From positions 1-64,000 of the forward strand of contig SIJG01000216.1 of NCBI GenBank assembly GCA_023374025.1: a DNA stretch of 64,000 nucleotides, written 5' to 3'. A program made the position numbers and the translations under genes. The notes beneath the pieces were generated by a model, which saw only the letters and a program-made list of their open reading frames with translations, was not told where the DNA came from and did no database searches. Shown here in pieces: positions 18,989 to 43,922 of this stretch; positions within the stretch are counted from its first letter, which is position 1; every line of letters starts with the position of its first letter. The DNA comes from Heterodera schachtii. Taxonomy: Eukaryota; Nematoda; Chromadorea; Rhabditida; Heteroderidae.

Positions 18989-21171
18989 ATGAAAAACATA
19001 ATAATTTCACTTATTATTCTTCATCAAATTGGTTATTGTAATGGTAATATTTATTGTAATTAACTAATTGACAAGTGCCATTAATTCACATTTTATTAAA
19101 GGACTGCTGACGTGCAAAGGTGGCTTCGCGGTTAAAAGTCTAAATCCATTGGTTGACAGCGCTCGCAAAAATGAAAATAAAACATGCACTGAGGACCAAA
19201 AATATTGTCTTGCAATAACCTGCACAAAAGGTCGATTAGGACTAAATGAAAAGAGGGAAATTTTTAAAAATTATTAAAAAAACAACTCAAATATTACATA
19301 AAAAACCAAAAATATTGATGATTATATATTGAAAAAAAGCGATGATGAAAAACAAATTTTTCCTAAATTAATTAAATATATAACTTTTTCTCATAAAATG
19401 CTTTCAACCTGTATTTTCACATTAAAAAATATAATGAACAGACAAAAGTCTTCCAAGAAATTAAATATTATTTTATTTTTTTTTAATAAAGAAATCCTTT
19501 TTTCGGCCTCTTCAAATGAACATTTAAAAACAACAGTAAAACTTGAGTAATCTGTTCTTCAAAAATAATGCAATAATTTGTTTCTAATAATATTTTTCTT
19601 TTTTTTTAAAAGATAAAATCATTGATTCTATTTATGTTACCTGGCCTAACAATAGAGAAAAATATAGCTAACTCAAAAACTTATTAAATTTATCTATTAA
19701 AAAAAAATTCCTACCTAGGCCAGAGTCACTATCATCAAAATTATGAAAAAAAAAACGAAAAATATTTAAAAAAATGTAAAAAATTATTTTTTTTATATGT
19801 GAAACTCATCTTAATGAATATGTAATATAACATTTATCTTCTTTCAAAAAAAAAGGAATTTCTAAAATAATTTTTGATCATGAAATTACTTATATAAATA
19901 GGAAAATTTTAGCAGGTGCGCAGGGTTTTTCCCAAATCATTTGGCGTTGTGATAAGGCGAATGACAATGTGGCATGTCAAGCGGCGAAATATGTGTTGGA
20001 AAATGAAACGAATTTGACCAACATTCAATGCAGCTGCGATTACGGCGAAACGGACATGTCAAATGCACAGTTTGAACTTCCGCCACTGCAAAAAGGGCTG
20101 ATGTGCAAAATGGGGGAGTTGGACATGGAAGGATATGGCGAAACGAAGAAAGGAATGTGCCTGGATGAAGACCAACACTGCTTCATGGCCATTTGTTCAA
20201 AAGGCAGGGCTATGATTATATACGGGAGAAATTACCAAATTCAAAATTCAAAAGTTTTAATTTTGCATTACGGCATTAACTAGAAATCAACTCGGGACAC
20301 CCGCGCTGGATTTTGCTGGGTCTAATCAGCAACATCATTTTTTGGAAAATTATGACACGGATAATAAAATCAATACGACAAAAATTTTGAATCCTAATCT
20401 CGCAACCGATTCGCGATATTGAATTTTGTTAAGATCTGGTTAGGACCCTCGAGTTAACAACACAATCCCAAAATGTTCAATTTGAAATAAAAAAACATGA
20501 TTTTCGTATTAAAACCAAAACGCTCGGTAAATTATAAAATTATGAAATAAAAGTTAGTGTAATTACCCAGATTTATTATTATTATCTAAAATTGGAAGAC
20601 TAAGTTAAGGCAATGAACACTACAAAACTGTGTGGGGATGCACTCCTGTGGCCAGCAAAGCTTTTATTAGCGCGAAAATTGGCGATGTGGACAATGCCAA
20701 GGTCAATTGTTTGTCTCTTTTTGGCAGAAAGGGCCTCGATTTTTCGAACGAAAATTTTACGGAACAAATGATGACAACGACAACCACAAAAACTAGCCCA
20801 AAACGAAAAACAAAAACGGCCACAACCACGACAACTTCGACGACAACTGTGACGACGATTGGCATGGAAAAGCAAACGACAAACCCTGAAGAGTCGCAAA
20901 CGACTTCGGCGGACGAGGGTGATAAAATATCAAAAATTAATTTATTTTTAATATATTAAAATTTTAATAGTAAATAGTGCAATTTGTGCAAAGTTTGCAA
21001 TGTTGTGGGTGGAGTTGATGATGCTGATTATTGGTAATAATTATCGTTATTAATTATTAAATTCAACACTGGCACAGGTGTTCCTGCTGCTGTCCATTTG
21101 AACTGATTGTTCATCAGTTGCATTTCTTGAGAAAAAATAAACAGAAAATTCAAACACAAATTATTCATTAA
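18989..21171 (+). CDS. secreted modular cysteine-rich protein 1 (ET-module-like repeats, Thr-rich linker)
   Basis: Exons: 18989-19043, 19102-19230, 19916-20203 (or from 19913), 20610-20918, 20994-21033 and 21078-21171; 304 residues. Exon 1 is a signal peptide (MKNIIISLIILHQIGYCN) ending in phase 1. Exon 2 is half A (LLTCKGGF...KYCLAITC). Exon 3 is half B (WRC...CSCDYGETDMSNAQFELP) fused to a second half A (LMCKMGE...HCFMAIC). Exon 4 is half B (VWGC...DFSNENF) running into a long Thr/Lys linker. The last two exons give a small cysteine domain (CNVVGG...WCSCCCPF). The intron after 20203 would begin GC rather than GT. The family resemblance to the nematode ET module is from memory of the cysteine pattern. 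Function is unknown; secretion is inferred from the signal peptide. Confidence 0.68.
20771..20918 (+). repeat. Thr-rich linker coding tract
   Basis: ACA/ACG/ACC/ACT codons dominate, giving TTTTTKTSPKRKTKT and similar runs interspersed with Lys, Ser and Glu. Such stretches are usually extended and O-glycosylated in secreted proteins. Comparable tracts lie at 26812-26876, 31068-31125 and, on the minus strand, about 42350-42400. Confidence 0.7.
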
Positions 21172-22437
21172 TTACAAAACACGATTGTTTACTAGTAATT
21201 TTCAACATAATGAAAATTATTTCCCATTTTTCATGTTTTATCTAATGTTTTGTAAATTGAAAATATGAATAATTTACTTATCAATATTGTATTATAAATT
21301 ATGTAATGTATTATTTAAATAAAAAATTGTATTTATTGATAATTATGAAAAATATTTAAATTGAATGATCTATACCGCGAAGCGAGAACTAAGTCTGAAA
21401 GAATAAATGAAATGGTCTAGATCGGTACCAGTACCGGCACCGGTCGATAATTTTAACAAATTTTCAAAAAACCTATCGGCGCCGCCGATCGGCGCTGACG
21501 GACCCACCCCCGTTCCCCAAGTTTTTTGGAAAATGTGCCGCTAAAAATTATTTGAAGCAGTTTTTCAAAATACCTTATGTTTGAGAATAAATTTTAAAGT
21601 TTTATGTATGTTAATTATGGATGAAATAAATTCAAAAAAATTTTTGTTTTGTACAGTATAAAAATGATTATTTTTTCTTTTCGTTTTCATTCTCGGTTAT
21701 TCAAACTTTTATATTTCGTTTCGTATTTGTTTTTGTATTGAATGCCCTTTTTCGTTTCGTTCTATACGAAAATTTTTTAATTTTCATGCAGCCCTGGTAC
21801 CGATACCAGATTTTCCAGTATCGGGGGAATCGGTACTATCGGTAAAAACCACACTGTTGACAATAAGAAACCGAGTACAAAATTAGTCAGTAAAATTAAG
21901 CAAAAGGAATGGAATATTTTCAAATTTTTGGACATTGATATTTTAGATTATTAATTTTATCTGTTAAGATAACGGGCCAAAATTCAAAAAAAAAAAACCC
22001 TATCATCTATCAACACCGCATTGAGATATTTCTCGCCCTAAGTATTCTATGTTACCTTTAAAATTTCACAAAATTTCATTGAGTTTCAAAGGTTATGGCC
22101 ACAAAATTCGGATTTAATCTTTTTAAAATTTTATAACCATATCTTTTTTATACTATTTAAAAGAAATTGTAATAAATATTTTAATAAAAAACATAGGAGC
22201 TATTGAATAATACCATGAGATATTAGCCAATTTATGAATTTTTATGTGTCACAATTTTTATTTTTATACCCCTTGGCGGATTTATGAAACGACTCAGCAC
22301 GTAATTTCTGTCAAAAATTTTCCTTTTATGATTTTTGACTAATGCCCATTTGATGGTTTTTGAATAACGTTCTAGCACCACACTGTTCTTACCATAGGGA
22401 GCTCAGGAAAAATAGGCTAAACCTAAAAATCGTATCC
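21172..22437. other. intergenic stretch with repeat elements
   Basis: 21417-21850 looks like one element: GGTACC/CCGGTACC-type words (TCGGTACCAGTACCGGC) are mirrored near the right end (GGTACCGATACC), and the GGCGGCGCC core lies at 21473-21505. 22020-22390 carries a degenerate relative of the foldback family. Around 22395-22440 is the short repeat TAGGGAGCTCAGG...ATCCCTA. No gene is supported. Confidence 0.5.
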
Positions 22438-22445
22438 CTAATGAC

Positions 22446-23254
22446 TAGAGTGAAGCGGGACCGGGAACTTTGTGCAAAACCGGGACCGGAATTTAATTTA
22501 TTTCAATTCAAAATAATACAAAATTAAATTTTAATTTTGTTTTTTATTTAATAAAATTCAAAAGTTAAAGCTAAATTAAATTAATGAAAATTTTCAAAAC
22601 GAATTTACTTCAATTATTTCAGACAATTAATCATTTTTAGACTCAAATGATCGAATATTTCTAGAAATTCAGATTTGCTTTTCACATCACTTTGTTTCGG
22701 CGCGCTTTTTCCAAAAAACTTTTGGGAAAGAATTGGGTCCGGCGGTGCCGATAGGCGCCGCCGGTGAAAATTTTGAAAATTTGGGTGTAATTTGTTAACA
22801 GATTTTCAGCAAAAAAAAAACTGATTTTGTGGATCAATAGGCACAACAATTTGTACGGATTTTCATTTAAAAATGATAAAAATATGTCAATTAAAAAATA
22901 TGAGGAATGATATTTTGTCGATAGGAAACCAATGAACATACAAAAAGAAAATTAAAATTTCTGTAGAGAGATTGAACCAGGCGAAAGAAAAAGGGAAGTC
23001 AAGGAGACTAGCCACTAGGCCATTTGCACAATTGGCCTTATCACTTTTAGAATATATTAATATATTTTTTAAATTTTTTCCTTTAATTTGTATTTTGATC
23101 ACTCACTAATTTTTCACTCATGCCCTCATTCTTACCAGTGCTTCTTTTTCCCGGTTGCCCTACCGGGACCGGGACCTGAGCTTTTCAAAATCCAGAACCG
23201 GGAACCGGGACCTCGGATGACCGGGAATTCCCGGCCCGGTCCCGCTTCACTCTA
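22446..23254. mobile_element. hAT-like element A of a tandem pair
   Basis: The inverted ends begin TAGAGTGAAGCGGGACCGGG and end with its near-complement CCCGGTCCCGCTTCACTCTA. The 809-bp element is flanked by CTAATGAC at 22438-22445 and 23255-23262. Inside are the GGCGGCGCC core (22737-22764) and a minus-strand tRNA-like sequence (22961-23036). No transposase frame is present. It abuts element B with only the shared 8-bp duplication between them. Confidence 0.85.
22961..23036 (-). repeat. tRNA-like sequence inside hAT-like element
   Basis: Read on the minus strand, a clear box A (TGGCCTAGTGG) is followed by a box B (GGTTCAATCTC) about 35 bases later. No proper anticodon stem is seen. This is a likely tRNA-derived SINE fragment or a borrowed polymerase III promoter. 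Confidence 0.4.
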
Positions 23255-23262
23255 CTAATGAC

Positions 23263-23895
23263 TAGGGATCATTTATTTATGTAAGAAAAATCGCGAAATA
23301 TGTAAATAAAATATGTATAAAAAACACTGAAATATGTATGAAATATGTACAAAAATCCAAAAATATGTACTAAAATATGTAAATAAAATTTTTTAAATGC
23401 TGTTTTTTGGAAAAAAATTCTTTCTAAAGGGTGAAATAGGCACAAATTGCCATAAAAATGACCTAAATAGGCTTAAAATTATCTTTTAGTAATTTAAAAA
23501 TTAATTTTTGGTATTCCATTTTTGAAAAAAAAAACTATTTTTTGGGGCACATTTTCAAAAAATTTTTTTGCTTTTCGCAAAAAATTTCTATAAATTCTCA
23601 AAATTTTTGAAAAAAATTGCGAAATTTTGGATATTTTTGAGGGTATTTCATAAAAAAATTCCCTAAAAATTCTCAAAAAATGCAAAATATGTACGAAAAA
23701 ATGCGAAAAAGTCCAAAATATGTATAAAAATATGTACATATGTAATATGTAGAAAAATCCGAAAATATTTAAAAATATGTAAATAAAAGTCCCAACTTTT
23801 GTTCGCAAACACAAAAAAGAAAGTGTTTTTCCTACTAATTAGGCTATGGAGAATCCAGGAAAAAAACATGTATTTACATAAAAAAATGATCCCTA
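23263..23895. mobile_element. hAT-like element B of a tandem pair
   Basis: The 633-bp element starts TAGGGATCATTTATTTATG and ends CATAAAAAAATGATCCCTA. It is flanked by CTAATGAC at 23255-23262 and 23896-23903. The interior is full of AAATATGTAAATAAAATATG-type words. Its near-terminal segment (AACTTTTGTTCGCAAAC) recurs near 47400 and, inverted, near 55840. No open frame of note is coded by it. Confidence 0.85.
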
Positions 23896-23898
23896 CTA

Positions 23899-24380: not shown

Positions 24381-24389
24381 ACGTGCCGA

Positions 24390-25100: not shown

Positions 25101-25105
25101 AAAAA

Positions 25106-27981
25106 ATGCATACAAATCTTACGTTATTTTTTGCCTTCTTTGCACTGTTTGTACACTTGCATTGTTCTTTCGGTGATTTTTTTAATATAATAAATAAAAA
25201 AATGTATTGAATTTAAGGGCTTCGTTGCAAAGTTGGACGCGCGGAAAGATTGGCCGACTTCGAAAGCAGTGCTAATAACCAGACATGCCCTGACGGCTCA
25301 CAACATTGTTTAGCTGTCACCTGCTCAACATGTAAATATTTTAATCATACAAAAAATGTTGTCATGGGTTTTAAGCCTTTACCAAATTGAAATAAAGATT
25401 AAATAAATATTATAAATAACAAATTGTTTCCCGTGATTTCAAATAACAATTATATTTATAAATTTAAAAATCTTTTTAGTATCTTCAGGAGATAAAAAAT
25501 AATAATTTTTATAAAAACCTAAATTTTTTAAAAGCAAAAATACATTTATGTAGTGGATCAACCGGGCAATGATTTCATCCTTTGGGGATGTGCTAAGTCT
25601 CAAGAGGGCTACCAATGCGCCTTTTTTGAAATGGGCGTAAAGCGGGTGACGAAATCCGAGAATGTGTCCTGCCATTGCTCATTTGGTCAAAAACAAGTTG
25701 ATTTGGCAAATTTGCAGTTCACTTTACGTCCAGTCACTCAAAGGAGTAAGGCATTTTTACAAATTTTAAAAAATATTTAAGTGGGGCTTAATTATGTAAA
25801 TTATGTTTAAAACCTAAAAATGCTAGTTTTGGTACAAAATCCAATATTAAAAAAACTGTTCTAAAAAGTTCACGAAAACCTAATTCTCAGAATCATTTGC
25901 AATCACCCGAATTCTCGGGTAAAATCATTTACCGTACACATTATTAATATGATCATTTATGAAGCTTGCTTACAGAATTGCCGTTTTGCCCATTTTTCGC
26001 TTATAAATTTTTTCAAACTTATAGGGCTCAAGTGTAAAGTTGGTGCTTTCGACGCGTCCGGATATGGCAGCACAAACAAAAGCAATTGCTTTGATGGATA
26101 TAAATTTTGTTATGAAGCTAACTGTGCTGAAGTTGAGTTTCTTTTGAACAAAAATACCATTGTTTCTATTATTATTATTAAATTTTGTTAAAGATCCCTT
26201 AAGAGTAGAGATCGTTTGTATATCTGAGGATTATTATCCCCACTTTTTGGTTTGTATGGTTACAGAAAAAATTTTTGAGAATGAGGACGTTAAGCTTTTT
26301 GTGATCTTTTAAGAAATTAGAGGATTTTGCCTGTATTTTAAAAATAGGCACATCTGGATGTAAATTTTTTTTTTTAAATCTTCAATATTTTTTCGCAAAA
26401 ATTTCTCAGCTTTGCAATTAAAAATTTAAAGAAATTAATGAACTTAATTGATACAATTGAAATAGAACTAACTGGGATTTAAATATTTTCATAACTTCAA
26501 AATTTCTTTTTAAATTTGAAAAATCTTAATTAATGTCAAATTCTAAATTTGAAATTTTTATTTTCTCGTGATAAAATTTTTTTATCATTCGTGTCAAAAG
26601 TTTTGTGTTTAAGAAATTAATATAACGGTGAGTCCAACAATTAAAATTACAGGGAAAGAGCATATTCGAAGGGAATGGGGATGCTCTGATGGGAACAGCA
26701 GCAACAGTTGTGCCAAAATTGAAGCCAAAGTTGGTAAAATGGTCAACTCAAAATCAGCAGTTGGTTGCGAGTGTAAGTTTGGCCCTGAGGGTGTTGATTT
26801 TGCAACTGAGAGAACCACCACTGCAAGCACAACACCGACAACAACAACCACCGCCCCCTCTACCACTACGACAACTGAAGTGCCAAACTCAATCAAAAAA
26901 CATTTAAAAAAACAAATAAAAATAGTCAGAAATAGGGCTTCCTTTTTTAGGCAAATGCCTAAAATTTTTGAGTATTTAATAAGCATAGATAAGCATGAAA
27001 AACACGTTTTCCGCTTGGTTTGGGGTGTCTACGAGACTTTTATAATGCCTGTTTTTGCCTATTTCGGGATTTTTTGCCTAAAGTGCCTATTTTAGGATTT
27101 TCGAAAAATCCTTAACAAAAAATGCAATAAAAACGAAAAAAACACCCCTAAGAAATGACCCAAAAAAATTTTCAGTAAAATACACCCCTAAGAAGTGAAA
27201 AAATTTTTTCCAAAAATTGGTCCCAAAATTTAATGTTTTTTTCTTAATTTTTTGGTTTAAAAATTTGTTGATATTTGAAAAAACTTTAAAGTATTTAATA
27301 ATTTCATTTACAGTTGAAATATTTAAGTTTTAACGTGTATTGTTACCTAAAAAGCGTTAATAACAAATTTTATTTGCCTGTGCCTATCTGAGGATTTTTG
27401 TGCCTGTTTAATGCTATTTCGCGATTTTTTTATGCCTTTTTAGGTGCCTATTTCGCGATTTTTTGTGCCTAAAAAGGGAGCCCTAGTCATAAAGTATAGT
27501 AAATGAATCCAAATAAAAATTTCATTAAAACAATAATTTGTAGCTCTTTTTTAAACTTGGCTAATAGAGAAAACTTATAGTTTAATGAATTATACATTTT
27601 AATTGATATGACTTAGACTCGTAAATAGAATCGTAAATTTTCATTTTTTTCAAATCACCTTTCACATAAGAATTTTTCAGTATTCTCCTCCAGCTGTTGA
27701 TAAATTTGGAAGCAAATTGCAGTGTTTGGCGTGGGAAATATGCAATTTGTTTGTTTTAAAATCCTTTTAATATCGTAAAATTTAACCATTTTTCAAGGAG
27801 TGCCAAATGGAAACAGGCAAAGGTTTCACGACGGTTTGAAATTGGACCAAAATGCGAGGAAATGATCAAAAATTGGGGACAGTTGAAGGTGGCAGAAATC
27901 AGTGAAGAATATGAAAAAAATGCCGTCGCCGACAATAATGGACAAGTGTTTTTGCGGGACTTCATTGAGGCTATTAAATAA
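25106..27981 (+). CDS. secreted modular cysteine-rich protein 2 (ET-module-like repeats)
   Basis: Exons: 25106-25172, 25218-25331, 25554-25745, 26025-26132, 26653-26879, 27681-27748 and 27798-27981; 319 residues if joined as listed. Exon 1 is a signal peptide ([20 protein letters not shown]). Exons 2-5 alternate half A (LRCKVGR...HCLAVTC), half B (LWGCAKS...[17 protein letters not shown]), half A (LKCKVGAF...FCYEANC) and half B (EWGCSDG...[13 protein letters not shown]). Exon 5 ends in a Thr-rich linker. The last two exons encode a different C-terminal domain ([11 protein letters not shown], then KCEEMIKNW... to DFIEAIK). The third half-A exon lacks a usable phase-1 donor: its expected boundary at 26132 reads G|TT. 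The last long intron carries a transposon. Confidence 0.6.
26933..27485. mobile_element. hAT-like element in an intron
   Basis: The inverted ends TAGGGCTTCC and GGGAGCCCTA continue inward as TTTTTTAGGCA and TGCCTAAAAA. The flanks GTCAGAAA (26925-26932) and GTCATAAA (27486-27493) match at seven of eight bases. The interior repeats GCCTATTTCGxGATTTTTTG-type words, shared with 32480-32560. It lies wholly inside the intron 26880-27680 of the surrounding gene. Confidence 0.72.
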
Positions 27982-27999
27982 GAAATTTCAAATCATTTA

Positions 28000-28860: not shown

Positions 28861-28867
28861 CAACTTT

Positions 28868-31800
28868 ATGCACTTTTTCTTCCCAACATTTATTATTTTT
28901 CTCCATTTCTCTCCTGCATTTTTGGTCAAGGAATATGTGAAGACTCCATTCAAATATGATTCAGAAGTGGCGGGTGAAGTGCTCAAAGGAGCCGAGCTTG
29001 GAGCGAAATTTGGTGCAGCAATTAGTGGCGGTAATCCACTTGGCATTGTCCTCGGTGTAGCAGGAGGCATGCTTGTTGCAGCGCTCAAAATTGGCATTAA
29101 CTATGAAACTTGCGCAGCAAATCTGAAGTAAATGGCAAAGAGAAATTTTTTATGACAAATGATGGTTGAATTATATTGACAAAAATTCTAAAATATTAAT
29201 TATAGCCAGATAAAAAAAATCATAAAAAGGATGAAATACGGAAAAAAACAAACATCAAATATAATTTTAAGCATAAATTTTTGCAAAATAATGAATTTTT
29301 GGATTTAAAAAAAACTTTAAAAAGCTGTAGTTCTTGTTATTCTGCTCTTACAGTAAAAAAGAAACAAATTATGAAAGAACAAAGTGATTACGATTTATGA
29401 GGATTTTGTTCCAAATTTTAAAATAAAAAATAAGTTAACATTAAATGCACTTAAACTTGACCATAAAAAGAATCATTTTTGAAAAAAGAAAAATAGCTTG
29501 GATTTTCTCTAAAACAAAATTTATGAAATTTATTTTAACAAAGAGAAAATTTCAAAAAATTAAAAATAAGAATTCATTTACGAGATAAAATAAAATTAAG
29601 AGAATGTGGTGACCAATACGGCATTTGTGTTGATACTGGGAACCCTGATTATCACGATTACTGTTGTGGTGAGGTTTATGAATGGAGATGCTACAACAAC
29701 TACGAAGAAGTGAGTTCAAAAATTATATTAAATATAAAATAATATTTATTTTGACGAAAAAGGAACTATTATTGACTATCAAATAATGCATATGCCAAAA
29801 TTCTTTGGAAACCTATAACAATTTTTTTCGAAAAACCATGGAATACACATTCCTATGAATTTAAATTTACAATTAATTTTAAGAAAAGATTATCAAAATT
29901 TCTTTTCAAATAAAAAATTACGCTTATCCACTGAGTATTTTTTATAATTGTTTAACGATTTTTTGCAAAAAAAATCGGGCTATAATAATAATTCAACAAT
30001 TAAATAAAAGTTCAATAATTTAGATACAAGAAGTTCTTGCGACAAGATTTATGGAATATAATGCGGCCAGTTATTTTTAGGGCATAAAAATTAGTTTTTT
30101 TTTAAATAATAAAATTTTGGGAAAATAGAGAAAAATTTTCAAAAAATAAATTTATTATACGATGACATTAAAATGTTATATTTAAATTTTCTATTTCCAT
30201 ACAAATTTAAAACCCGGACTCAGTAATTCCGACCCTAAAACCGGAGTTTCGGAACCCTGTCCGATCCTCAGATTATGTTCAAACCTTATTTCTTCCCATT
30301 CGATAGACATTCCAAGCCCAAAAAGCTGTCCACAGAACGGAAAGCAAAGTGGACAGTCTGCACACAAAGGTTGATGGCATTCGGGAACAGAACGAAATAA
30401 AGAGACGAGAAGAGGAGAACAAAAAAGTGTGTGACCCGAGCAAAGAATGCAAACATTGCGGTGGAGTTTCGTCGTGCGTTCAAATTCCTCAATCTTGGAT
30501 CCAATTGTCTGGTTGTTGTGAGCCCGGCTATGAGCTAAAGTGCTGTGTTAGGGTAAAAATTTACTTTACTGTACTTAGCTTTTATCTGATTTTTAAAGTT
30601 TTTTAAATTTTTTTACAATAAAAGTTATTTTTTTGTTTTTAATAAGTCGTTCCATAAATTTTCCATTGGCATAAATTGAATAAAAATAATATTATAAATC
30701 ATAATTCTTTTAAATTCAACCAAATTCAGCATTCTTTGATACCTTTCAAACGCTCTAGTCAACCTTACAAATGTGACCAATAATAAAAGTCGAAGTTTCA
30801 GAATTTCATAAGAATAACTTTTAAAATTTATTTTATTTATTTTTGTGTAATTGACAAGTTGTTATAATTTGACACCAAATTCAATAAATTAAAAAAAGAA
30901 TGATTTCAATCTTTAGTTACATTGATTAATTTCATTTTGCCTATTTGAACACAAAGAAACGCATTTTAATAAATAAAAAATAATTGTACACAGAATTATT
31001 TCCCAAAAATGGATGAGATAAAAGCATAAAGTTGAAAAATTCATTTTGTGGTTTTTCCGTGCAGAGAACAACAACGACCACAACTTCTACCACAACAACA
31101 ACAATGACCACCACAACAACGGAAGAAAATTTGATGTGCAAAAAAGCGACTTTCGAAACGCACCCCGAGGGCAACATTTACAAAGAAGACCAAAACAAAA
31201 TATGTGAAAAAAGCGAACGCCACTGTTATGTGCTGAATTGCACAGCAGGTCGACCGAAACTAATTAGGCTATTATTATATGTGTGATTCATAAAAAAAAA
31301 GTCAAATTTGACAAAACAAAAAAAACTTTCTTGGAAATGGGCAGAATAAGCATTAATGAAATTAAATTAGGGCTACTGAAAAAAAAAACATAAATTACAT
31401 ACATAAATATTTTACCAAATAAAAATTGATCCAACACATAATAAAAATAAATAAACAAAATAATAGAAATAATTATTCATTTTGTAAATCACCAATAAAA
31501 TTTAGTTTCTACGTCACTTGAAGGGTATATTGGTTTAAAGGCAGAATGGGGTTGCAGTGAGACGAAGTTGTCCTTTTACGAAAATTTTAACAAAAGCATT
31601 GGTTGGATGGGCCAAGGCCATTTCGCCGGATCAAACTGCAATTTTTTTGTCGGAAAGAAACACGACGACATGTCCAATCATAACAAAGAAGTATTTGTAA
31701 TGAACCCTGGTAAAATTTAAAAATATTAAAAAATATATTTTCTTTTCAAAAAGGCATTTCATCTTTTTGGTGTAAGGGCGGACATTTTTGGGAAAAGCAC

Positions 31801-34216
31801 CATGGAAACAACGTGACAATTTGCAAGCCACATGAACATTTCTGTTATACGGTGAACTGCACTTTGGAAATAGATGGTACTCTTCCCAAGAGTTGAAAAC
31901 CTAAACTATAAAAATCAAGAAGTCCTTGAAATTGAGCATTCAAAAGAAAAGTTTTTAAATTTTACAATTTTTTAAACTTTAACTTTTATACCCAATTTTC
32001 ATTAACTTATTGCATTATTGGTGCAAAATCTGGTACTAAATTGCACAAAAATTCCCAAATTTTCCCCGGCGGCGCCTATCGGCATCGCCGGACCCCACCC
32101 CCCCCCCCCCCTCCCCTCCCCCCTCCCATGTTACAAAACGTTTTTCTAATATGCGGAAAAATGACGAAAATTACCAACCGATATAAAAAACTTTTTTGGC
32201 ATTTTGCCGTTTTGGTGTTTTTTCCCGAAAAAATTACATAAAAATGCAATAAAATCGGAAAAATACACCCTCTAAGAATTAAAAAATTTTCTCAAAAATT
32301 GATTGCCAAAATCATTTTCTTCTTGATAAAAAATTTTTGGTTTAAAAATTCTCTTTTTCGAAAAACATTATAAAAATTTAATAATCATTTAAATGACCAA
32401 AATTAAATTATATGGTTAGGTTTTACGTGTTTTGCTCCCTAAAAATGTTTAATAAAAAATTTTCAAATCCCCTTTTTCATGCCTTTTTCGGGATTTTCGT
32501 GCCTTTTCATGCCTTTTTTCAATTTTTTCGTGCCTTTTTCGCGATTTTTGGTGTCTTTTTAGTCGGTCTCTAGTATTGAGATTAGTTCATGTCATTTTAT
32601 TGCATATATTTTAAAAAACAGGCCCGAAACAATCATCTATGCTGAATGTTCTGACAAAGTGGGGATGCACGGACAAGTCCGATAAACTCCTTCAACAAAT
32701 GCCCGGACAGTTGATTGACCAAAATTCAGCCAGTCGAATCGTTGACCAACGCTGCAATGTAAGCTATGGAGAAGCAAATGTTACAATGGCCAATGCCAAC
32801 ATTGTTGTTCACATTCCGGGTAAATAAAAAATTAAAAATTAAAAAAATAATATTAATGTTTATTTTAATTAATTCCTTACAGCCAAACAATGCAAAAAGG
32901 CTTACATGTCAAAGTCGCGCAATTCTGACATAACGGACAAAGATTGCAGCCAATTTCAAAGCTATTGCTATTTGTTGAACTGTTCAACAGGTACACTGTA
33001 GAGATGGAAATCGAAGACATAATTTTTGGAAATCGGAATTCTTTAGTCTAAAAATATTTTGGAAAAAAGGAAAACATAATTCATCCAAGTCGAAAATGTT
33101 GGAAATTAATAATTTTTATTTAAAAAATTATATAAAAAAGTATTTTTGTTAAGAAATTAAAAAATTAAAATTTCCCTTATTTCCTGTTTCGCGCTTTTCT
33201 ATTCCACATTTAAAAATAATTCTTATGATCGGAAGTCGACTCAATTTTTACTCCAAATTTTACTAAATATAGAACTTTTTTATAATTAAACATAAACTAA
33301 ACTTATTTATCAGTCAACAATGACAACACAGCCGACATTATAACGGAGTGGGGCTGCACTGACAAACTGTATGACAATAATGATTTTCTTCATGGCAAAG
33401 CTAGGAATTTGAACGAGGCATATATTGGCCCAATTCCCACCAATTCTTTGTGCGTTTCCGCTGTCGTAAACGGCACAAATGATGGCCTGATGCTTCCAGC
33501 ACCAAGTCTATCACATAATTCATTTTATTATTATTATTTTTGTTTATATATTTATTTGAGCAAAAGCAAATAAGTGCAAAATTGGGCGTGAAACGCCAGG
33601 AAATAAAACATTCATCGGAGAATGTGGTCCAAATGAGAATGTGTGCTATTCAATTGCCTGTGAAGACAGTAAGTTCAATAATTTAATGAATCATCAACCC
33701 ATTTGGTGAAATTTGGTCATTTTTTGCACTGAGCTCAAGTGCCGTTTGGATTAGTCTCGTTTTCTGATTTTTAAATTCCATCAAGAGCTTTGGATAATAC
33801 CAAATTTAGCCGGTTCAGTCAAAATGTTTTAAGTGCCATATTCTCTCCATTTTTGAATTTTGGCATGGTAATTCTCAAAAACGAAAATAACAACAAAAAC
33901 AAAGATTGGAATAGATTTTTGAAATTTGAAAATTAATTCTTGCATTTTTTTTTTTGCAATGTTTGATGATTTTAATAGACCCTTTAACTTTATTCCTTTT
34001 TGGTAAATAATTTTTTGATGGGTTTACTTTTTGTCTGAGTAAGGTGATTTTAAATATGACTTTTATTTTACAGCACAACAGCCGGAAAAACGATACATTG
34101 AATGGGGTTGTACGTCCAACTTAAGCCAAATTTGTGCCAAGAAAATTGACGAAATCGATTTTAGCTCAAATAAACATTTGTGCTTTTGCGAGATTCTCAA
34201 AAACCCAAGTGTTTAA
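28868..34216 (+). CDS. secreted modular cysteine-rich protein 3 (largest of the family)
   Basis: Eleven exons: 28868-29127, 29601-29709, 30307-30552, 31065-31248, 31506-31709, 31754-31876, 32622-32819, 32883-32990, 33314-33505, 33567-33668 and 34074-34216. Every phase agrees; 622 residues. Order: signal peptide (MHFFFPTFIIFLHFSPAFL); a Gly/Ala-rich hydrophobic segment; cysteine motif 1 (ECGDQYGIC...YCCGEVYEWRC); a charged coiled-coil-like stretch; cysteine motif 2 (CKHCGG...CCEPGYELKCC); a Thr-rich linker. Then come four A+B module pairs, with half A as in CKKATF...HCYVLNC and half B as in EWGC...DDMSNHNKEV. The final half B is short (EWGCTS...LCFCE). An extracellular or secretory role is inferred; the biochemical function is unknown. 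The splice at 29127 skips an apparent TAA at 29129. Confidence 0.75.
31900..32575. repeat. composite repeat in an intron
   Basis: The left part (about 31915-32040) matches 8530-8660, inside or beside the 304-bp hAT-like MITE. It is followed by the GGCGGCGCC core (32064-32096), a long C-rich run (32092-32128), AATACACCCTCTAAG, and GCCTTTTTCGGGATTTTCGTG words like those of the element at 26933-27485. It is entirely intronic in the gene around it. The right end TCGGTCTCTAG resembles the end of the element at 7056. Confidence 0.6.
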
Positions 34217-34914: not shown

Positions 34915-37900
34915 TCATTTACTTCCCATATTCATGTTTGTTTCGCACCTTAATGGCAATTTATGTTCCAGTTTAGTCATAATATTCTTACCCAATACCA
35001 ATCCAAAGCACACACCATCGGATGAATCCATGGCAATCGGCCGCGGCATAACGGGTGATGACGAGTTATGCCTTGTATGGCCTGAATAGAAAAATACCGG
35101 GAGATACTAATATTTACAAATACAGACCGAAGGGCGATTAATCTAAATAAAAATTATATGTTCATAACAAATTAATAAACATTAATATAGAATTTGAAAA
35201 AATAATATAAAGGAAAAAAAAGTATTATAAAGAAATAATTTTTGTACTCCAAAAGGCAAAACAAAAAAATGCGCCAATTCATTTTTTAAATTGGAGCTTT
35301 TGTAATTGAATTTTCTTATTTTAAAGCGGTTTTTTCGGGAATCGCAATTGTTTGTTTCAGTCCGAAAAATTGTCAAGTTATTAGATCGAACTAAACTAGG
35401 CCGGCTGACTTGAATTTTATGATCACGATATCTCGGATCAACGTCGGCAAGAGCGTAATTTTCACTGCAACAGTCAGAAGCCTTCAATCCTTCTGACCAA
35501 ATGCAGAAAGCCTGGTTTTTCACTTCATAAGCTATTTTCTGATTTCCACATGCCGTTCCTCCAGCTGGGTCGCGAACCAACTTTAAGGACAATTAATGCT
35601 TATTCGAGAAAGTGCGCTTCAATATTACGATTGGCCGTTCTTTAATTGTTGGATCCTAAAAGAAAATTTAAGTGTTAGAATTATGCATTCTGTGATTTTT
35701 GCCATAAAGAGGGAATTAGTTTAATATGCCTCCCAAAATTTTGGATATGGTATGAGTTTTCCTACACCCTAGACCGAACACTAATAATTAGTGTTATAAA
35801 TTATATGGATCAAAAACCGACAAATATGAACATAAAATATGGACTAAAAAAAACTCAAAAATGGGTAAATATGGACTAAAAACTGTCAAAATATATGTTT
35901 TAAATCCTAAAAATTCAGAAAAATATATTCAATATCTGTCATTTAAAAAGACTTATAAATATGCAAAAAAAACTTCCAAAAAAATGGATTTAAACTTAAA
36001 AAATACCAATTTTTTATTAAATTCTAGCTTCACAATTGCAGACCAAATACATCTCTAAATTTTTGTAATAAACTCATTTTGTTGTCAGTGAAAATTCGAA
36101 AGCGAACAAATACCTAAAAATTTTCGAAATTTCAAAAAAAAAAAATTCCTTTTAGGAATGTATTTCCAGAAAGTCGATCTTTAGGGGGTGTGATTTTCGC
36201 TTTTTTTGCATTTTCCTTGTGAAAATTTGCCAAAAATGGCAAAAATACCGACTAAAAATGCAAAAATGTCGAAATATGGATTTATTCCCGAAAATCCCTA
36301 AAATACGGATTTATATGGATGTAACAATTTGTAAAAAGTTTACCGATGAACAGCAAGAACAGGTTGTGCTTTTATCACAGCATATTCCACGTATCATCTG
36401 GTCAAAATGCAACGGATCGCAGACACAGTACACTTGCTTGTTTTTGCATTCCGACTTTTTGTCCAATTCCGAAATCATTTCTTTCTTAGAAATAAATGAA
36501 CAATTTAAACGCATTTTTTTATATATAAAATACAGTATTGCCACAAATATACCCCAGAAGATTCAGCTTGGAGTAATTTACGATATATTGTAGCTAATGC
36601 AATAGCAACCAATAAAACATTAATGATATCATAAATACCCGCATGATTTCACCTTTTGTAATATCATAATACCCGCATAATTTCACTTTTGTATTTCATA
36701 AAATTTGTAATTTTTTACAAATGGTAGCCTGATTTTTTTTTTTTGCTTATGGATAATGCGTTAAATGATCCTAAGCCAACCGGAAATGTTACCCTAATCC
36801 AGGGAAGGAGTATTATTTGTAGGAATACAGTATTCTATAATTCATAAAGTACCGTCTTTATTTTGTTCCAAACATAATTCGGAAGTTTTGGCTTTGAAAG
36901 TGAAATGGGAAAAACAAATTCATATTCAATTTTTATTAAATTTAACTATAAAATTTTCAATTATAAAATATAATTTTACATTTATATGCGTACCTTTGGG
37001 GATTTATCCGGAATATTGATTAAAACCTTGAGGATATTTTTTTTTAAAGTTGAAAATGATTAATTTACCCATGGTTTTAAAGAAACGTCATGATATTCAC
37101 AAGAACGTTGATCGACCGTTTTCCCCTGTTTTGTAAGCCATTGATACGTTATACATGTCTTTTCGTCTCCACTATAACCTTCAATTTCCTAAAAAAATAT
37201 CAATAGTTTAAAAATTTTTATATTTCTAATGAACAATTAATTTAAAAATTAATTGGAAGATGTTTTGTCACTATAATTATTAATTTAATACAAATAACCG
37301 AACCGCAACTTCCACAGTTGGAATATGGTTTGGGTCCACCGTCGTTATTCCAAAATCGACAATCGAAAGTTCGTAATTTTCTTGGCAACAAATCGAAGCT
37401 TTTGCCCCTTCCTTCCAAAAGCAGGCCCGAGGCAATCCTAAATGAAAAAAAGATATTCGTTTGACAATTTGCGAATTAATTATTTAAATAATTACTCAAA
37501 GTTGTATCATGCTTTTCTTCATGCTGTTTAACTGCTTCCCGACATTTCTCATCCCCCCAATTTGTAAAAACAAACACCTTAATTTTAAAATAACACCAAG
37601 GATATATTATGTATTACCTTTTGCCGATCTGTAATTATCTTGTTCTAAAAAATACATTGATTTTGTTTTTAATCCTCAACAACCAAGAAGATATTTCAAT
37701 AATTTTTATGCATCATTTAAAATTTAGGCAATGATTTTTAGTAAAATTTTAAATCATTCGTTTAGTTGAATTAATTAAAAGATTAGTTTAGTGCTTCTAT
37801 AATATTTTTATAAATGAATAGAAGGAGTTTTCAAATTTTATTGAATTTTTTTTTAATGTTAATTTATTATTATTATTTTTATTTTTTAGCATACATATTC

Positions 37901-40018
37901 AATTGCCTATTTTCAGTTCGTAAACCAAATTTTTACCCATTCACAACATCCGCAAGAAAAACCACAGCACATGCCTCTTATCATATGTTTACTCATTACG
38001 TCACAAATACATCGCCCACTTCCGCATATGGAGTTTTTATCGAATTCCAAAGCCTTTTCTTTCTATATGATAAAAACTATAAATACATATTCTTTTTAGA
38101 AACTTTTAAGTATTCATTCTAGGTTTTTTTCTGAAATTTCCAACTATGCTACATAGTAATATATATAATACATATATTCTAAAATATATTTATTACCAAA
38201 TCGATCCTCTGCCAGGCGTGTCTTTGCTTCGATAGCTTCAATTAAAAAATGATATTATTAATATTCACTAATTTACACAATTTCCCGTTATAATATTAAT
38301 TTACAAATTCCCATCTGTAATATGTGGAGGCCTACCTATTTTTTAGATCCGAATAAATGAATTTCTATCATTCAAAAGTATATAATTTTAGACTTTTTAT
38401 ATTAGAAAGAAAAGCACGTTTAAACCATTTATTCTGTTTCCTAAATTATTTGCTTTTTATAAGCATATAAATTTAGGGCTTTCTAATTTCGAATAATATA
38501 AAATTTCATTAAATAAATTTTAATTTTATATAAAACATTACTATGTACTACTCGGTTTTTGGAATTGAATGAATATTTGTGTAATTTTTCACTCACCAAA
38601 ACAAAAAAACTGTAATGTATTAATCAGACCTGCTGTATCCTTTTTAATTAATTTATGTACCAATGTGCAGCATTTGATCACGTAGTTATCCGGACAGCAT
38701 TTTCTTGAATTGTAATTTTCCCGTACATTCGGACAACACTCAAAATCGTCCTTATCACCACCATCCTGTTCTGGCACACAATTTGCCCAGCCGCATTCGG
38801 TGCACGCAATTTGCGCTTCTTCTTTACATTCCTGGCTCACAAACAATTCCAATGGAAATGGCTGAAGAAAAAACAGAAAAGATAAATAATTTAAAAATTT
38901 AATTTCCTATTTACTACAACAATTGGTTGGATCAATAGCAGTTTGTACATAAAGGCAGTTCATACAATAAAAAAATTTTCAAATTAAAGCCTAACACTAA
39001 GCTTAGGCCTAAGCACACGCAAGCATATGCTTAGGGCTAAGCCTAAGCTTAATCCAAAAGACTTAAATGCCTATTGTAAGAATTGCCATGACCCCAATCG
39101 AGGCTGGGACAGTCCAAAAAAAGATAAATGAAAAAACTGTATACAGAAAATTATTCTTCGCCAAAAAACTTCATTCTTAACCTGCAAAAGTTCTAAAAAT
39201 TCAAAAAGTTTCAAAAAAGTTTTGAGATTTAAAATTTATTTTAATTAAGAACTTGTCAAAAATAAAATCTCTGTTTATAATAAAGCAGTAACTCATAAGT
39301 AATGCTCCGTTCAACGGCTAAGCATTTGTTTATTATGCATATTGAAATAATAATCCATATTAATTTATTCATCTAAAGCAAATATATCCAAGTAAATTAC
39401 AAAGTATTATTTTAAAATTGAACATAATGATTCTAAAAGTGATAAATTCTTATATGCAATTAAAAAATATAAGGAATTTTCGAATAAAAAAGACAAAAAT
39501 TATTCAATGCGAGATGCAGAAAGTTTTCATCGCGAGAAAAAGCGAAAGACGTTGATGGAATATTTAATTGACATTAAATTTAATTGAATCTATTTATAAA
39601 TTTATGATTAATTTATCGTTGTTTTCTAAAGAAACACATGTAAAATTAGTTTTAAATAAAAATTACAAATAGAATTAATAAATTACATAAATAGAATAAA
39701 ATAAAAAGTAATTGTGGGAGTTAACAGCATCTAAAGAAATCACTTTTTCTTTATTGACCAAATCAAAGCCCTAAGACAAGGCTCAGCTTCGTAGAGGGGT
39801 CTTAAGTGAAGTTATTTGATTAAAAAATAATTAAAATAAGAATTTAGTGACATAGTGGGCATGTTAGCATCAGAACACATTGAGACTAAACACAGCGAGC
39901 AGTGCAAAATCTAAATCATTGGTTATGATGAGATTTGAAAATTCAAACCAAAGAAAAAAATTTTTATGTAAATACCGTCAACAAAGTAAATGATTAGCAG
40001 AAGCGCCACAAAGATCAT
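34915..40018 (-). CDS. minus-strand cysteine-rich gene with micro-exons
   Basis: Supported exons from 5': 38861-38661, 38235-38197, 37644-37618, 37577-37496, 37437-37304, 37188-37069, 37026-36994, 36891-36853, 36484-36344, 35655-35629, 35580-35397 and 35081-34915 (TGA); 398 codons in phase. The first has ACTECGWANC...CCPDNYVIKCC. Two exons share the motif W-x-E-G-x-K-A-S-x-C-C-x-E-N-Y-x-L-x3-D, and another carries CSCC. Five exons are only 27-39 bases long. A signal-peptide exon at 40018-39976 (MIFVALLLIIYFVD, phase 1) is a likely 5' end, but no exon linking phase 1 to the phase-0 start at 38861 was found. The last exon is open in two frames, so its reading is uncertain. An apparent stop near 35594 lies within the 48-base intron. 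It has no A/B module but shares the CC-x3-Y motif with the gene ending at 34216. Product unknown. Confidence 0.55.
38998..39051. repeat. palindrome of AAGCTTAGGC units
   Basis: TAAGCTTAGGCCTAAGC is followed 14 bases later by GCTTAGGGCTAAGCCTAAGC, which can pair with it. It probably lies between exons of the minus-strand gene. A small foldback or degenerate microsatellite. Confidence 0.55.
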
Positions 40019-40130
40019 CACCAATTTGGTAATAATGCTATAGCTCTCCGCAAATAAGACAGATGAACCATTTGGGAGAAGGTCTACCAATTAAAAAATT
40101 ATAAGAAAACGTAAAAGTTAATTAAAAAAG

Positions 40131-40200
40131 TGTTTTTGTGGTGTAGCGATAGTGCGCCAGTCACCGTTTTTAAGTTCCAAGTTCGATTTGACATAAAAAG
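40131..40200 (+). repeat. tRNA-like sequence
   Basis: GTGTAGCGATAGTGCGC resembles box A and AAGTTCGATTTGA resembles box B, about 40 bases apart. No full cloverleaf. It sits at the left edge of the minisatellite-ended element. Confidence 0.3.
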
Positions 40201-40235
40201 CAAAAATAAAAATAAAGAATTTGCATGTAGGGGAA

Positions 40236-41040
40236 TCGGCTCTAGGAAAATCCGAAACTGGAAAATCCGACACCGGAAAATCCGACCTGGAAAATCCGAC
40301 ACAAGCGGAAAATCCGACACCGCTGGAAAATCCGACACTAGCGGAAAATCCGACACCGCTGGAAAATCCGACACTAGCGGAAAATCCGGCACTGGAAAAT
40401 CCGACACCAACTTTAAATTTTAAAAATAATTTTGATACTTTGAGTTAATATTTAAAATACATATAATAAAGTTACAGTACTGAAGTTATTTAAAATAAAT
40501 ATTTTTATTGCCATAATCTATCTAGGTAGGCATATGAATATTTTTCGTATGCCCTTTAGTTAAAAATAATTTCTGTGATCCTGGTGAAACGTCAATGAAA
40601 TAGGCTTAACAATTTTTAACATATGGATGAGGTAATTCTCCATTTTGAATGCTATTCCGTCCTCTGTTCTCGAATAATTTGGTTCTACCCCACCCCTTGA
40701 GTTTGTTAATGTCTTCTGAAGAGGCGAAATTCATGAGAATTCACCTGGACCTAATCCTCTCCAGGCAACAGAAGTTGACCAGATCATTCGTGAAAAAATC
40801 GACGCAAAAAAAAAATAATTCTCGGTAAATTCAATTCGAGAACTTGCTAAGCCTAGGTAGATAGATATTAACTCAAACAAACTAAAAACAATTTAAAGTT
40901 GGTGTCGGATTTTCCGCTTGTGTCGGATTTTCCAGTGTCGGATTTTCCAGTGTCGGATTTTCCAGTGTCGGATTTTCCAGTGTCGGATTTTCCAGTGTCG
41001 GATTTTCCAGTGTCGGATTTTCCAGTGTCGGATTTTCCGG
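40236..41040. mobile_element. foldback element with minisatellite arms (GGAAAATCCGACA)
   Basis: The left arm (40236-40415) is a tandem array of GGAAAATCCGACAC units alternating with GCT or TAGC. The right arm (40895-41040) is the inverse array TGTCGGATTTTCCAG, about eight units. The inner ends AATCCGACACCAACTTTAAA and AAAGTTGGTGTCGGATTTTC are also inverted copies. About 480 bases of unique AT-rich DNA lie between. Open frames through the left array give GKSDT or VSDFP repeats, which are translation artefacts. Class unknown. Confidence 0.65.
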
Positions 41041-41534
41041 CTCCCAAGTAAATTAGGAAAAAATTGTTTATAAAACCAAACTTTATTTTTAATTATTTTT
41101 AATTTATTTTTTTACCTAAAATACTCATTAAAAATATTAGAAATTAAAATAAGGATTCTGTTTCATAAAAAATATTTGGGTGTACTTTAGTCAAGGCCCC
41201 AGAAAATAATGGCACAAATGATATACCCAATCGATTCGTCTCGACGAGCTATGCACGAAAAAGTAGGTCTCCAGTTGTGGAAATGCCCAAAAACCGGTTT
41301 TTGAACGGGTTTAAAACCAGAAAAATTGAGTGAAAAGGGGGGGGGGGGCCCTGACCCTTTAAAACGGTCAAACTCGGACAAATTTTAAGTTTTCTTATAT
41401 AATGCACGAAATCGTTTAGCCTTGAATAATGAGTATTGCGCTAAAAAACCGCCGCACACTCTATTACGGCGGCCAGTAGGTGGGCGAGACTCCGGGCTTT
41501 TAAAGTTAATGTCACAATTTATTTAATTATCCAT
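41041..41534. other. intergenic stretch
   Basis: Includes a G run (41338-41348) followed by CCCTGACCC, a probable repeat fragment. No gene seen. Confidence 0.4.
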
Positions 41535-43922
41535 TTAAATTAATAAAAAACAACCGGATGTTTCCATTTTCTTCAACAAAGAAGTAATGTTTTCATTCTT
41601 GGCGCCAATAGCACAGTAGCATGTGTCAGTGTCCAAATTAAAACCAAATTTTTCAATGTTTTGGCCACAAATTTCGGATGCAAAATCTTTCTGACAGCCC
41701 CATTCAATAACATTCATGGCAGGCTTTTTTCCTTAATATTCAAAATAATTATCAGACTAATCGAATACTGAAAATAAATATTTAAAATTTCCCTGTTTAA
41801 AAAGAAATAAAAATTTATTAATAATGCCAATTAGGTAAAGAAAAAATTGATTTCATATATCAAAGTTGAATTCTTTCAATACTATAATAATTCATATTAA
41901 AGAAATTATCTCGTCCAAAAATGTCAGGGAGAAATATTTTTTTAATATTTTTCCGCCAAAATTGGTAGCACATATTTAAAGAATTATTTAATAAATTTAC
42001 GTAGATTTTCAGTATTTTTCTTTCCATATGGCTTAGGACAGCAATATTTTTTTTTATTAAAAAGTTATTTATTTTTAAATGTTCAAAAAATACTATTTTA
42101 TTTAAAAAATTACTTTTAATCATTTTTTTTTAGCTAAGTTGATCCCTTGGCTTAATTGTCCTTCGCGCTTTGGACTTATAATCTGTTACAGACTTAATTG
42201 TTCCAGTCAATTTAAAAAATATGCAATTCATCCTCCAACCTGAACTGCAATTGAACAAATAACAAAAGTTCTCTCCCGCGGGGCATTCATTGCCAAAAGA
42301 TGAATTGTTTTCCGGCGAAATGATTTCACGTTTGCAATTATATGGGGGCTGAGTTGTGGTTGTGGTGGTGGTAGTCGTTGTTGTTGTCGTCGTGGTCAAG
42401 GGCGTACCAGTAACTGAACTAATTATAAGAGATCTTCCCAGAAAAACTCAAAAATTTGAAAAAGGATGCATCAAATTTCAAATGTATGCAAAAATTTGAC
42501 CAAAAAGTGAATCATTCTATCTTGTTAGGATTATTCAGCTGACACGAGAACAGTGAGAGCAAAATCGTGGATCGTGAAAGAAACCGAAAATTTTTAAATA
42601 CTCATTTAATGAGTTTATATTTTAAAAAAGCTTTTTTCATTTTTCACTAATTTTAAGAAAAAAAAAATTACCAAACAATTGCAAAAACATTTGAAAAATC
42701 TCATTTTTTGGTTTTTTAATATCTTCAAAACAAATATTTCAACAAAAAAAGATTTTATGTGGGACTCCCTAACTAAACTTTACATAGATCACACCCCACT
42801 TTTGTATTAGTAAATTTTTTCACATTGGATTTACATTAGAATTTGTGAATGATATTATTGATAAAGTAAAAAAAAAAGAGCCAGGAATTTGAACTCTTTA
42901 TAAGCTGAAGAAGCCAAATCCCTCCCTATCCATTTTATGTACTTGGAAGCTGAAAATCCATCTGCTCATTGGACATTCCGACGCCATCTTTTCCCTTTTT
43001 GCACATACATTTAAGGTTGTCAATTTCGAAAAGTGCTGATTTACCGGGATCAGTTTCTATGTAAACAACAAGAAATTAAATATTTTTAAATTGCTTTAAT
43101 TTAATTATTTAATTAATTAAAAACTTTCAATATTTAAAAGTAAATTCCTATCTTTAGTGTTAAATTCAGGAAGTATTGTATTTTTAGTTAATGACAAAAT
43201 TCTTTTGATGATTGTTTTTTAAACCAAACAGCTTTATGAAATTAGATGTTAATATTAAATATAAACATTTTTTAAATCGATTATTGGCAAATCATTTTTA
43301 AATACCTTGACATTTTTTACTAGACTCATCATCAAAATCGGCTGCGCATCCCCATTCCACGTGAATTTGGTACCCTTTTTGAAAATTGTATTTAAAATTT
43401 CAAAACTGATTAATAAAAAAATTTCTAAAAGTTTGATTTTAATTCTCATCTCAATAATTGATTATAAAAATCGTAGAAATCTCCTCGATGAAAGAAAAAC
43501 ATTATTTTCCTAATACATAATTAAAAAAGAATTTTAGTTAGTTTTCTGTTACATTTTAAAATTCGATTTTTAATAATTAATATTATGAATTATTTTTCTT
43601 TTAAACATTTAACCATCTGTGCAGTTCATAAAGTAACAAAAATTATAAGCGCCCTTTCGCCAAGTACATGTTGTAGAAGGAAGCCAATTAACTTCCTTTT
43701 CCGACGCGAGCTTATACCCGCGTTTGCATTGCAATGCGTTCAACTGAAAATAATAAATAATTATTATTATTTATTTATAAATTTTGGATTTCGCATTTCC
43801 GATAATTGTATTATGTACACAGCAGCAGGACAACTTTTGAAGTTCCTTCTTGGACCAATCACAATTAAGAATGACAAACGACGAACAACAGAGATAGATG
43901 ACAAATGAAATGGCATTTTCCC
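41535..43922 (-). CDS. minus-strand modular cysteine-rich gene (ET-module-like), 5' end missing
   Basis: Exons: 43922-43819, 43743-43614, 43374-43306, 43056-42943, 42413-42240 and 41731-41535 (TAA). Phases agree and give about 262 residues. Order: a hydrophobic cysteine-rich piece (CDWSKKELQKLSCCC); half A (LQCKRGY...NFCYFMNC); half B, here split over two exons (EWGCAADF..., then CMCKKGKDGVGMSNEQM); a Thr-rich linker; a second half A (YNCKREI...NFCYLFNC); and a short final half B (EWGCQKD...CYCAIGAKNENI). The first listed exon opens in phase 1 with no in-frame start, so a signal-peptide exon upstream of 43922 is expected but was not found. Function unknown, presumably secreted like its neighbours. 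The split half B is unique among the family members here. Confidence 0.6.

Follow-up and report, generated by a model that had tools for sequence, protein, structure and literature searches.

What is the cysteine-rich module that recurs in four genes within 25 kb (positions 18,989 to 43,922) of a contig of the plant-parasitic nematode Heterodera schachtii, and does it belong to a known extracellular fold? The window analysed here is a stretch of 64,000 nucleotides (positions 1 to 64,000 of SIJG01000216.1, below C216, in an assembly of 356 contigs and 178.5 Mb; C12, C25, C34, C95, C200 and C214 are contigs of the same assembly). Each module consists of a half A followed by a half B, and by our best reading, to which we give about even odds (roughly 0.5), the two halves together form one disulfide-rich domain like the LU (Ly6/uPAR, three-finger) domain. 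For this reading the anatomy of the genes, in which all splice junctions were deduced from genomic DNA, is a stronger argument than the sequence scores.

The two-part module in the window and across the genome

Half A reads approximately L-x-C-K-x-G ... C ... C-(Y)-x-x-x-C and half B approximately E-W-G-C ... C ... C-x-C-x-F-G ... D-x-x-N; the cysteines are numbered C1-C4 in half A and C5-C8 in half B. Hidden Markov models (HMMs) were seeded with nine A halves and eight B halves. In the window the A model recovered ten halves, all at E ≤ 6.5e-6, its best match beyond the genes having E 0.15; the B model recovered nine B halves at E ≤ 1.4e-6 and the tenth, which is split by an intron, as pieces at E 0.003 and 0.024, the best remaining match (E 0.039) lying within an intron of gene 1. 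As a seed necessarily matches the model built from it, the models were rebuilt without each of the four genes in succession. Nine of the ten A halves were then regained at E ≤ 0.023 and the tenth at 0.17; in the case of the B halves six of ten were regained at E ≤ 0.011 (one via a piece of the split half), two at 0.13-0.15, and two had no match at E ≤ 1. The best matches beyond the four genes were 0.065 (A) and 0.34 (B). Since held-out halves are regained, the repeat is not a seeding artefact; judged by these scores, the B halves are much more diverged. An earlier note on this DNA had described the same half A / half B module in four genes, with about 2, 2, 4 and 2 module pairs and Thr-rich linkers at varying places, and this description is borne out: genes 1 to 4 carry 2, 2, 4 and 2 pairs (ten in total), and Thr-rich stretches (16-23 Thr within 21-53 residues) occur at four different positions across the genes. 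In all four gene models the first half is an A and the last a B, and genes 1-3 open with an exon that, judged by eye, resembles a signal peptide.

The module is not confined to the window. A genome search with gene 2 gave at least 70 exon matches (36 of the 70 at E ≤ 0.001, on 14 contigs), and the fetched loci contain 90 distinct halves, 44 of type A and 46 of type B, gene 4 of the window standing outside this set. Among neighbouring halves within 3 kb of each other, A and B alternate in 66 of 68 pairs; the two non-alternating pairs adjoin each other on C12, where halves missed the threshold. Near-identical copies of the cluster on C214 and C200 are alleles or recent duplicates. Relatives of all four genes are also present on C12 (~1.34-1.41 Mb) and C25 (~0.99-1.02 Mb), which suggests an old origin of the entire cluster. 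Between the window and C214 we counted 14 synonymous and 7 nonsynonymous changes over 345 comparable codons (ratio of nonsynonymous to synonymous change, pN/pS, 0.126), and between the window and C200 6 and 4 over 131 codons (0.159), both being small counts; aligned non-coding stretches are 87-91% identical. Change in the C214 pair is thus mostly synonymous where it was compared. The counts omit the starts of the gene 1 A1 exon and the gene 2 B1 exon because at these places more than simple substitution separates the copies on C214 or C200 from the window; constraint, as read from such counts, holds only for the compared parts, and some copies may be defective. At C200:2994 the first A half of gene 1 has Trp in place of the first Cys of the window copy, and on C95 two gene-1-like copies with identical halves (C95:304117-305640 and C95:317969-319507) lie inverted, ~12 kb apart.

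No library that we searched names this family. NCBIfam gave no match, none of 359 candidates from a large protein collection, which may not include nematodes, matched gene 2 at E ≤ 0.1, and literature searches on the ET module, on three-finger proteins in plant-parasitic or cyst nematodes and on nematode Ly6 returned nothing on it among their top-ranked results.

Exon layout, cysteines and the three-finger reading

According to the earlier note, nearly every half is its own exon with phase-1 boundaries, so that modules can be gained or lost in frame. This holds for most halves, and the modularity, i.e. phase-1 exon units in differing copy numbers, is real; it does not hold for gene 1, where B1 and A2 occupy a single exon (19916-20203), likewise in the relatives on C214, C200, C95, C25 and C12, nor for gene 4, where an extra intron interrupts the first B half and divides it into two exons. 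Module junctions in the window are in phase 1 apart from four exceptions, namely the phase-0 acceptors of the first A exon of gene 4 and of the Thr-rich/A1 exon of gene 3, a phase-0 candidate donor past B2 and the Thr-rich stretch of gene 2, and exon A2 of gene 2, where TT stands in the usual place of the donor. Among the 44 fetched A halves, the last Cys codon is followed at exactly +7 by GT in 31, by GC in four and by TT in four, the last all being the same gene-2-type exon; the other five have a phase-1 GT at +10 or +16. Upstream of the first Cys, 33 of the 40 A halves tested have an AG in phase 1 (one in phase 0, five in phase 2), and the expected stretch contains an AG in phase 1 in 34 of the 35 B halves that have a W.C motif (in phase 0 in 11, in phase 2 in five). 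The TT (26133-26134) is common to four copies (window, C214, C12 and C25), and a GT in a different phase precedes it by one base; the TT may be a conserved unusual splice site, or the exon may end elsewhere. The GC donors are those at 20204 and in its relatives on C200 and C214, and one at C25:1017339; a raised share of GC/AG introns, apparently confined to Heteroderidae, is reported in the accessible text of PMC4901422, and such donors point towards a cyst nematode. Even without an LU fold, the family is a clean case of exon-cassette evolution, with half-domain exons, phase-1 introns and arrays of 2 to 4.

This layout is what leads to the LU domain. LU genes, as far as the accessible text of PMC6600238 describes them, begin with a signal exon, after which each domain takes up two exons, generally between phase-1 introns, and are often clustered; the dividing intron lies at the tip of loop 2, disulfide 2-3 is frequently lost, mammalian multi-LU proteins no longer have the 7-8 bond in their N-terminal domain, and strand E is sometimes helical. 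Apart from the fused and split exons, the phase-0 acceptors and the TT place, the A/B genes have the same arrangement of a signal-like exon, two phase-1 exons per domain and clustering, most of all like multi-LU genes such as PLAUR, and a helix is predicted in half B. The resemblance extends to an intron inside the domain, which by our cysteine mapping falls in loop 2, to domains that have no 7-8 pair, to the order of the cysteines and perhaps to a late Asn. This Asn is nearly invariant (at least 90%) in 20 aligned modules; in LU domains, however, Asn directly follows the tenth Cys, whereas no tenth Cys precedes it here. Six cysteines of the ten-Cys LU pattern (bonds 1-5, 2-3, 4-6, 7-8 and 9-10) can be placed by order, that is 1, 4, 5, 6, 7 and 8, and the A/B modules differ further in two extra cysteines (C4 and C7 by the mapping), in their Thr-rich stretches and in the other cysteine exons of gene 3.

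The cysteine counts bear on how the halves relate. Four cysteines are present in 36 of the 44 A halves, five in four and three in four; B halves mostly have four or two. Of the 46 fetched B halves, the 11 without a W.C motif were left out and the other 35 scored for C6 and C8 by script; two of gene 4, scored by hand, bring the total to 37. Both cysteines are present in 21, neither in 15, and a single half is discordant, with an extra Cys soon after C5 and no C8. This tally is inflated by related copies, many of them orthologous: the B halves without C6 and C8 correspond to approximately five positions (the second of gene 1, three of gene 3 and one on C34), and perhaps to fewer independent losses. 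That C6 and C8 come and go as a pair supports a disulfide between them. Both are missing from the first three domains of gene 3 and the second of gene 1, where in mammalian multi-LU proteins, according to the accessible source text, it is the N-terminal domain that does without the bond. The remaining bonds, C1-C3, C2-C5 and C4-C7, are proposed by elimination and by analogy with LU domains.

The prevalence of four cysteines in A and of four or two in B, the covariation of C6 and C8 inside B and the exon shared by B1 and A2 of gene 1 would also suit two separate small nematode-specific disulfide domains instead of one three-finger domain, and the weak or negative LU sequence tests described below are on the side of that interpretation too. 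The A-B alternation of 66 in 68 neighbour pairs speaks against it, as do the gene models, each of which begins with A and ends with B, and the preference of a small LU model for the A-B order; we hold two separate domains to be somewhat unlikely. The model in question was made from six human LU sequences, and 24 of 39 modules, which are mutually related, were scored with it. Mean scores were 2.97 bits for the A-B order, 1.38 for B-A, 0.78 for reversed sequences and -0.11 for shuffles with the cysteines fixed, all tiny in absolute terms; A-B exceeds B-A in 19 of the 24 modules (p 0.016), reversed sequences at p 0.013 and Cys-fixed shuffles at p 6e-6, values to be read with the relatedness of the modules in mind.

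Pfam gave similarly slight hints of a three-finger domain. With five joined modules (E ≤ 1), weak matches to QVR (0.068) and to a cobra-type family (0.033) were found in one of the five each. With 20 of the 39 X-joined modules (truncated and near-identical ones being dropped; E ≤ 10, where HMMER filters lose most matches above ~0.1), the cobra-type family matched three, the best at 0.009 (PF21947), which is below the cut-off, and none of 20 Cys-fixed shuffles matched a three-finger family. Among these weak matches only the repeated cobra-type one stands out.

Several observations weigh against an LU-like domain. By this mapping nothing in the A/B modules corresponds to LU cysteines 2, 3, 9 and 10, and phase-1 cassettes are also found in many unrelated extracellular domains, so that the layout is no proof. 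No Pfam family, PF00021, PF00087 and PF17064 included, passed its cut-off with the five joined or the 20 X-joined modules, and human LU controls match UPAR_LY6 at 5e-6 to 3e-15 whereas the A/B modules do not match it at all. An UPAR_LY6 search of the genome found nothing, but neither did its controls. Five unrelated families match one of the 20 X-joined modules each (0.049-0.28), and two of the 20 Cys-fixed shuffles match unrelated families at 0.033-0.034, from which it follows that E-values of this size arise by chance. No sequence in the PDB matched at E ≤ 10, and hhalign against the six human LU sequences scored 11.3, where 150 decoys had a median of 9.4 and a maximum of 16.5 and the reversed profile scored 14.4. 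Finally, half B folded alone is predicted with a helix at residues 8-26 of a 57-residue model and zero strands (mean predicted local distance difference test score, pLDDT, 64.6); the B1-A2 exon on its own gave an uninformative prediction (pLDDT 40), which we also count on this side. The sequences do not yet prove kinship to LU genes; the likeness is mainly one of gene layout.

If the LU-like reading is nevertheless followed, a domain would comprise a half A and the next half B, with the intron between them inside the domain, and the fold would be LU-like with disulfides 2-3 and 9-10 lost and one cross-link gained, held by C1-C3, C2-C5 and C4-C7 plus a dispensable C6-C8. Tandem copies of this single disulfide-rich domain would make up the presumably secreted, extracellular proteins of the four genes. 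As each two-exon set lies between phase-1 introns, unequal exchange could add or remove whole domains in frame, and the Thr-rich stretches, which are probably O-glycosylated, may serve as spacers between domains.

Possible roles and remaining alternatives

The signal-like starts, the repeats, the Thr-rich spacers and the size of the family suggest extracellular binding, and the likely role would be protein-protein binding at the worm surface or in its secretions. A more far-reaching scenario, which we regard as unlikely in its entirety, is that a plant-parasitic nematode lineage has on its own expanded a multi-domain three-finger family, in which the LU two-exon phase-1 cassette was kept, two ancestral disulfides were replaced by a new A-B cross-link, the 7-8 bond was dropped in chosen domains as in the uPAR family, and the array was combined with mucin-like spacers and with cysteine domains of other kinds; the products would be modular binders in the manner of uPAR, acting where worm and plant meet. 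Were the LU-like reading true, an expanded secreted nematode family would be tied to a well-studied extracellular fold via gene structure and not via sequence identity, the family would provide natural sets of domains that either have or lack one disulfide, and its arrays in a plant parasite would be candidate surface or host-contact proteins.

Whatever the fold, the proteins could also be secreted effectors that are delivered into the plant. The genome does encode pectate lyases (PF03211, 27 exon matches above cut-off), the family is expanded and clustered, and its first exons are signal-like; in layout alone it can be likened to the pea aphid cassette effectors, which, in the accessible text of PMC7495047, are likewise secreted, built from small (miniature) exons and found in a plant-feeding animal. 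However, the gland-promoter motif ATGCCA (the DOG box, in the accessible text of PMC4901422) is absent from the 500 bases that precede genes 1-3 and occurs in the window as a whole about as often as expected by chance (29 copies against a shuffled mean of 28.8; one copy lies within 500 bases of the first module exon of gene 4, the start of which is provisional), and synonymous changes prevail between close copies where these were compared. We consider delivery as an effector unlikely.

The earlier note had likened the module to the nematode ET module (PF01684), and a divergent branch of that family would fit the nematode host, the presumably similar cysteine spacing, the cysteine-rich and extracellular character that we take ET proteins to have, and the possibility that ET is itself three-finger-like. 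PF01684 nevertheless matched none of the five joined modules (E ≤ 1) and none of the 20 X-joined ones (E ≤ 10), comparisons made without an ET positive control, nor any exon in a genome search in which the controls likewise gave no match. With no HMM match anywhere it was tried, we dropped the ET label as unsupported; a divergent ET branch seems unlikely, although a very distant tie to ET may exist.

Gene models and neighbouring sequence

The exons of the four genes are collected in Table 1. Besides the 5' end of gene 4, the last exon that the earlier note assigned to gene 2 (~27760-27981) is provisional.

Table 1. Exons of the four gene models in the window (HMM figures are E-values; w/o, without)
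Gene	Feature	Position	Strand	Evidence
1	Signal-peptide-like exon, ends in phase 1	18989..19043	+	ATG, hydrophobic N-terminus, GT donor
1	Half A1	19102..19230	+	HMM 7e-15; AG/GT, phase 1/1
1	Fused B1 + A2	19916..20203	+	HMM B 2.6e-20, A 6.3e-17; AG acceptor, GC donor, phase 1/1
1	Half B2 (w/o C6, C8) + Thr-rich stretch	20610..20918	+	HMM 1.4e-6; AG/GT, phase 1/1
1	Possible last exon with stop (inferred)	21078..21106	+	AG acceptor, phase 1 in, stop
2	Signal-peptide-like exon	25106..25172	+	ATG, hydrophobic stretch, GT donor, phase 1
2	Half A1	25218..25331	+	HMM 4.3e-17; phase 1/1
2	Half B1	25554..25745	+	HMM 4.4e-24; phase 1/1
2	Half A2, TT at donor place	26025..26132	+	HMM 1.3e-16
2	Half B2 + Thr-rich stretch, 3' end provisional	26653..26879	+	HMM 2.4e-20; AG phase 1, candidate GT donor phase 0
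3	N-terminal exon: signal-like start, Gly/Ala-rich hydrophobic stretch	28868..29127	+	relatives C214:60370, C25:1015288
3	First other cysteine exon	29601..29709	+	AG/GT, phase 2/0; relative C214:61127; no Pfam match
3	Charged helix + second other cysteine exon, start provisional	30317..30552	+	relatives C12:1362486, C25:1016795; GT donor, phase 0
3	Thr-rich stretch + half A1	31065..31248	+	HMM 4.8e-16; phase 0/1
3	Half B1 (w/o C6, C8)	31506..31709	+	HMM 9.8e-23
3	Half A2	31754..31876	+	HMM 5.1e-18; phase 1/1
3	Half B2 (w/o C6, C8)	32622..32819	+	HMM 5.7e-24
3	Half A3	32883..32990	+	HMM 6.5e-6, non-seed; phase 1/1
3	Half B3 (w/o C6, C8)	33314..33505	+	HMM 5.5e-16; AG/GT, phase 1/1
3	Half A4	33567..33668	+	HMM 1.6e-14; AG/GT, phase 1/1
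3	Half B4 with stop (C6 + C8 present)	34074..34216	+	HMM 1.9e-12
4	Half A1, upstream start provisional	43614..43743	-	HMM 3.5e-17; AG/GT, phase 0/1
4	Half B1 piece 1 (WGC...C)	43306..43374	-	AG/GT, phase 1/1; HMM 0.024 on overlapping frame
4	Half B1 piece 2 (C.C...N)	42943..43056	-	HMM 0.003; AG/GT, phase 1/1
4	Thr-rich stretch + half A2	42240..42413	-	HMM 2.1e-15; phase 1/1
4	Half B2 with stop	41535..41731	-	HMM 2.6e-18; four relatives 52-58% identical on C12 + C25

Gene 3 indeed has two more cysteine exons, to which the earlier note had also pointed, and the second of them recurs ahead of A/B exons on C12 and C25. Relatives of the upstream exons (on C12, C25 and C214) keep their order relative to the A/B exons wherever the latter were found, and the charged-helix/cysteine exon joins the Thr-rich exon in phase 0; the upstream exons are probably on the same transcript as the A/B exons. 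None of the upstream pieces matched Pfam at cut-off, and a comparison of the two other cysteine stretches with each other found only a CC....KCC end in common (E 0.010), which is too little for a claim.

Between genes 3 and 4, on the minus strand (35200-38906), lie one or more further cysteine-rich genes with the repeated units C.W.EG.KAS.CC.ENY.L..VD and C.C......IRG.CC; the pieces tried against Pfam gave no match, and weak relatives are present near the paralogous clusters on C12 and C25 and on other contigs. In the genome at large, 45 of 50 scored candidates resemble the gene of the spliced leader (SL1) RNA, many of them in arrays, all below the Rfam cut-off (best 56 versus 75 bits); these mark a nematode genome, and with the pectate lyases make a plant-parasitic tylenchid very likely. 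Minisatellites of the related units GTGTCGGATTTTCC and ACTGTCGGATTGTCC are located in the stretch that separates gene 4 from the adjacent gene on the minus strand, and farther out (40245-40407, 40902-41038, 47551-47643 and 51307-51354). Similar short tandem repeats downstream of the B2 exon of gene 2 (27395-27470) and in an intron of gene 3 (32471-32560) are perhaps pieces of one mobile element.

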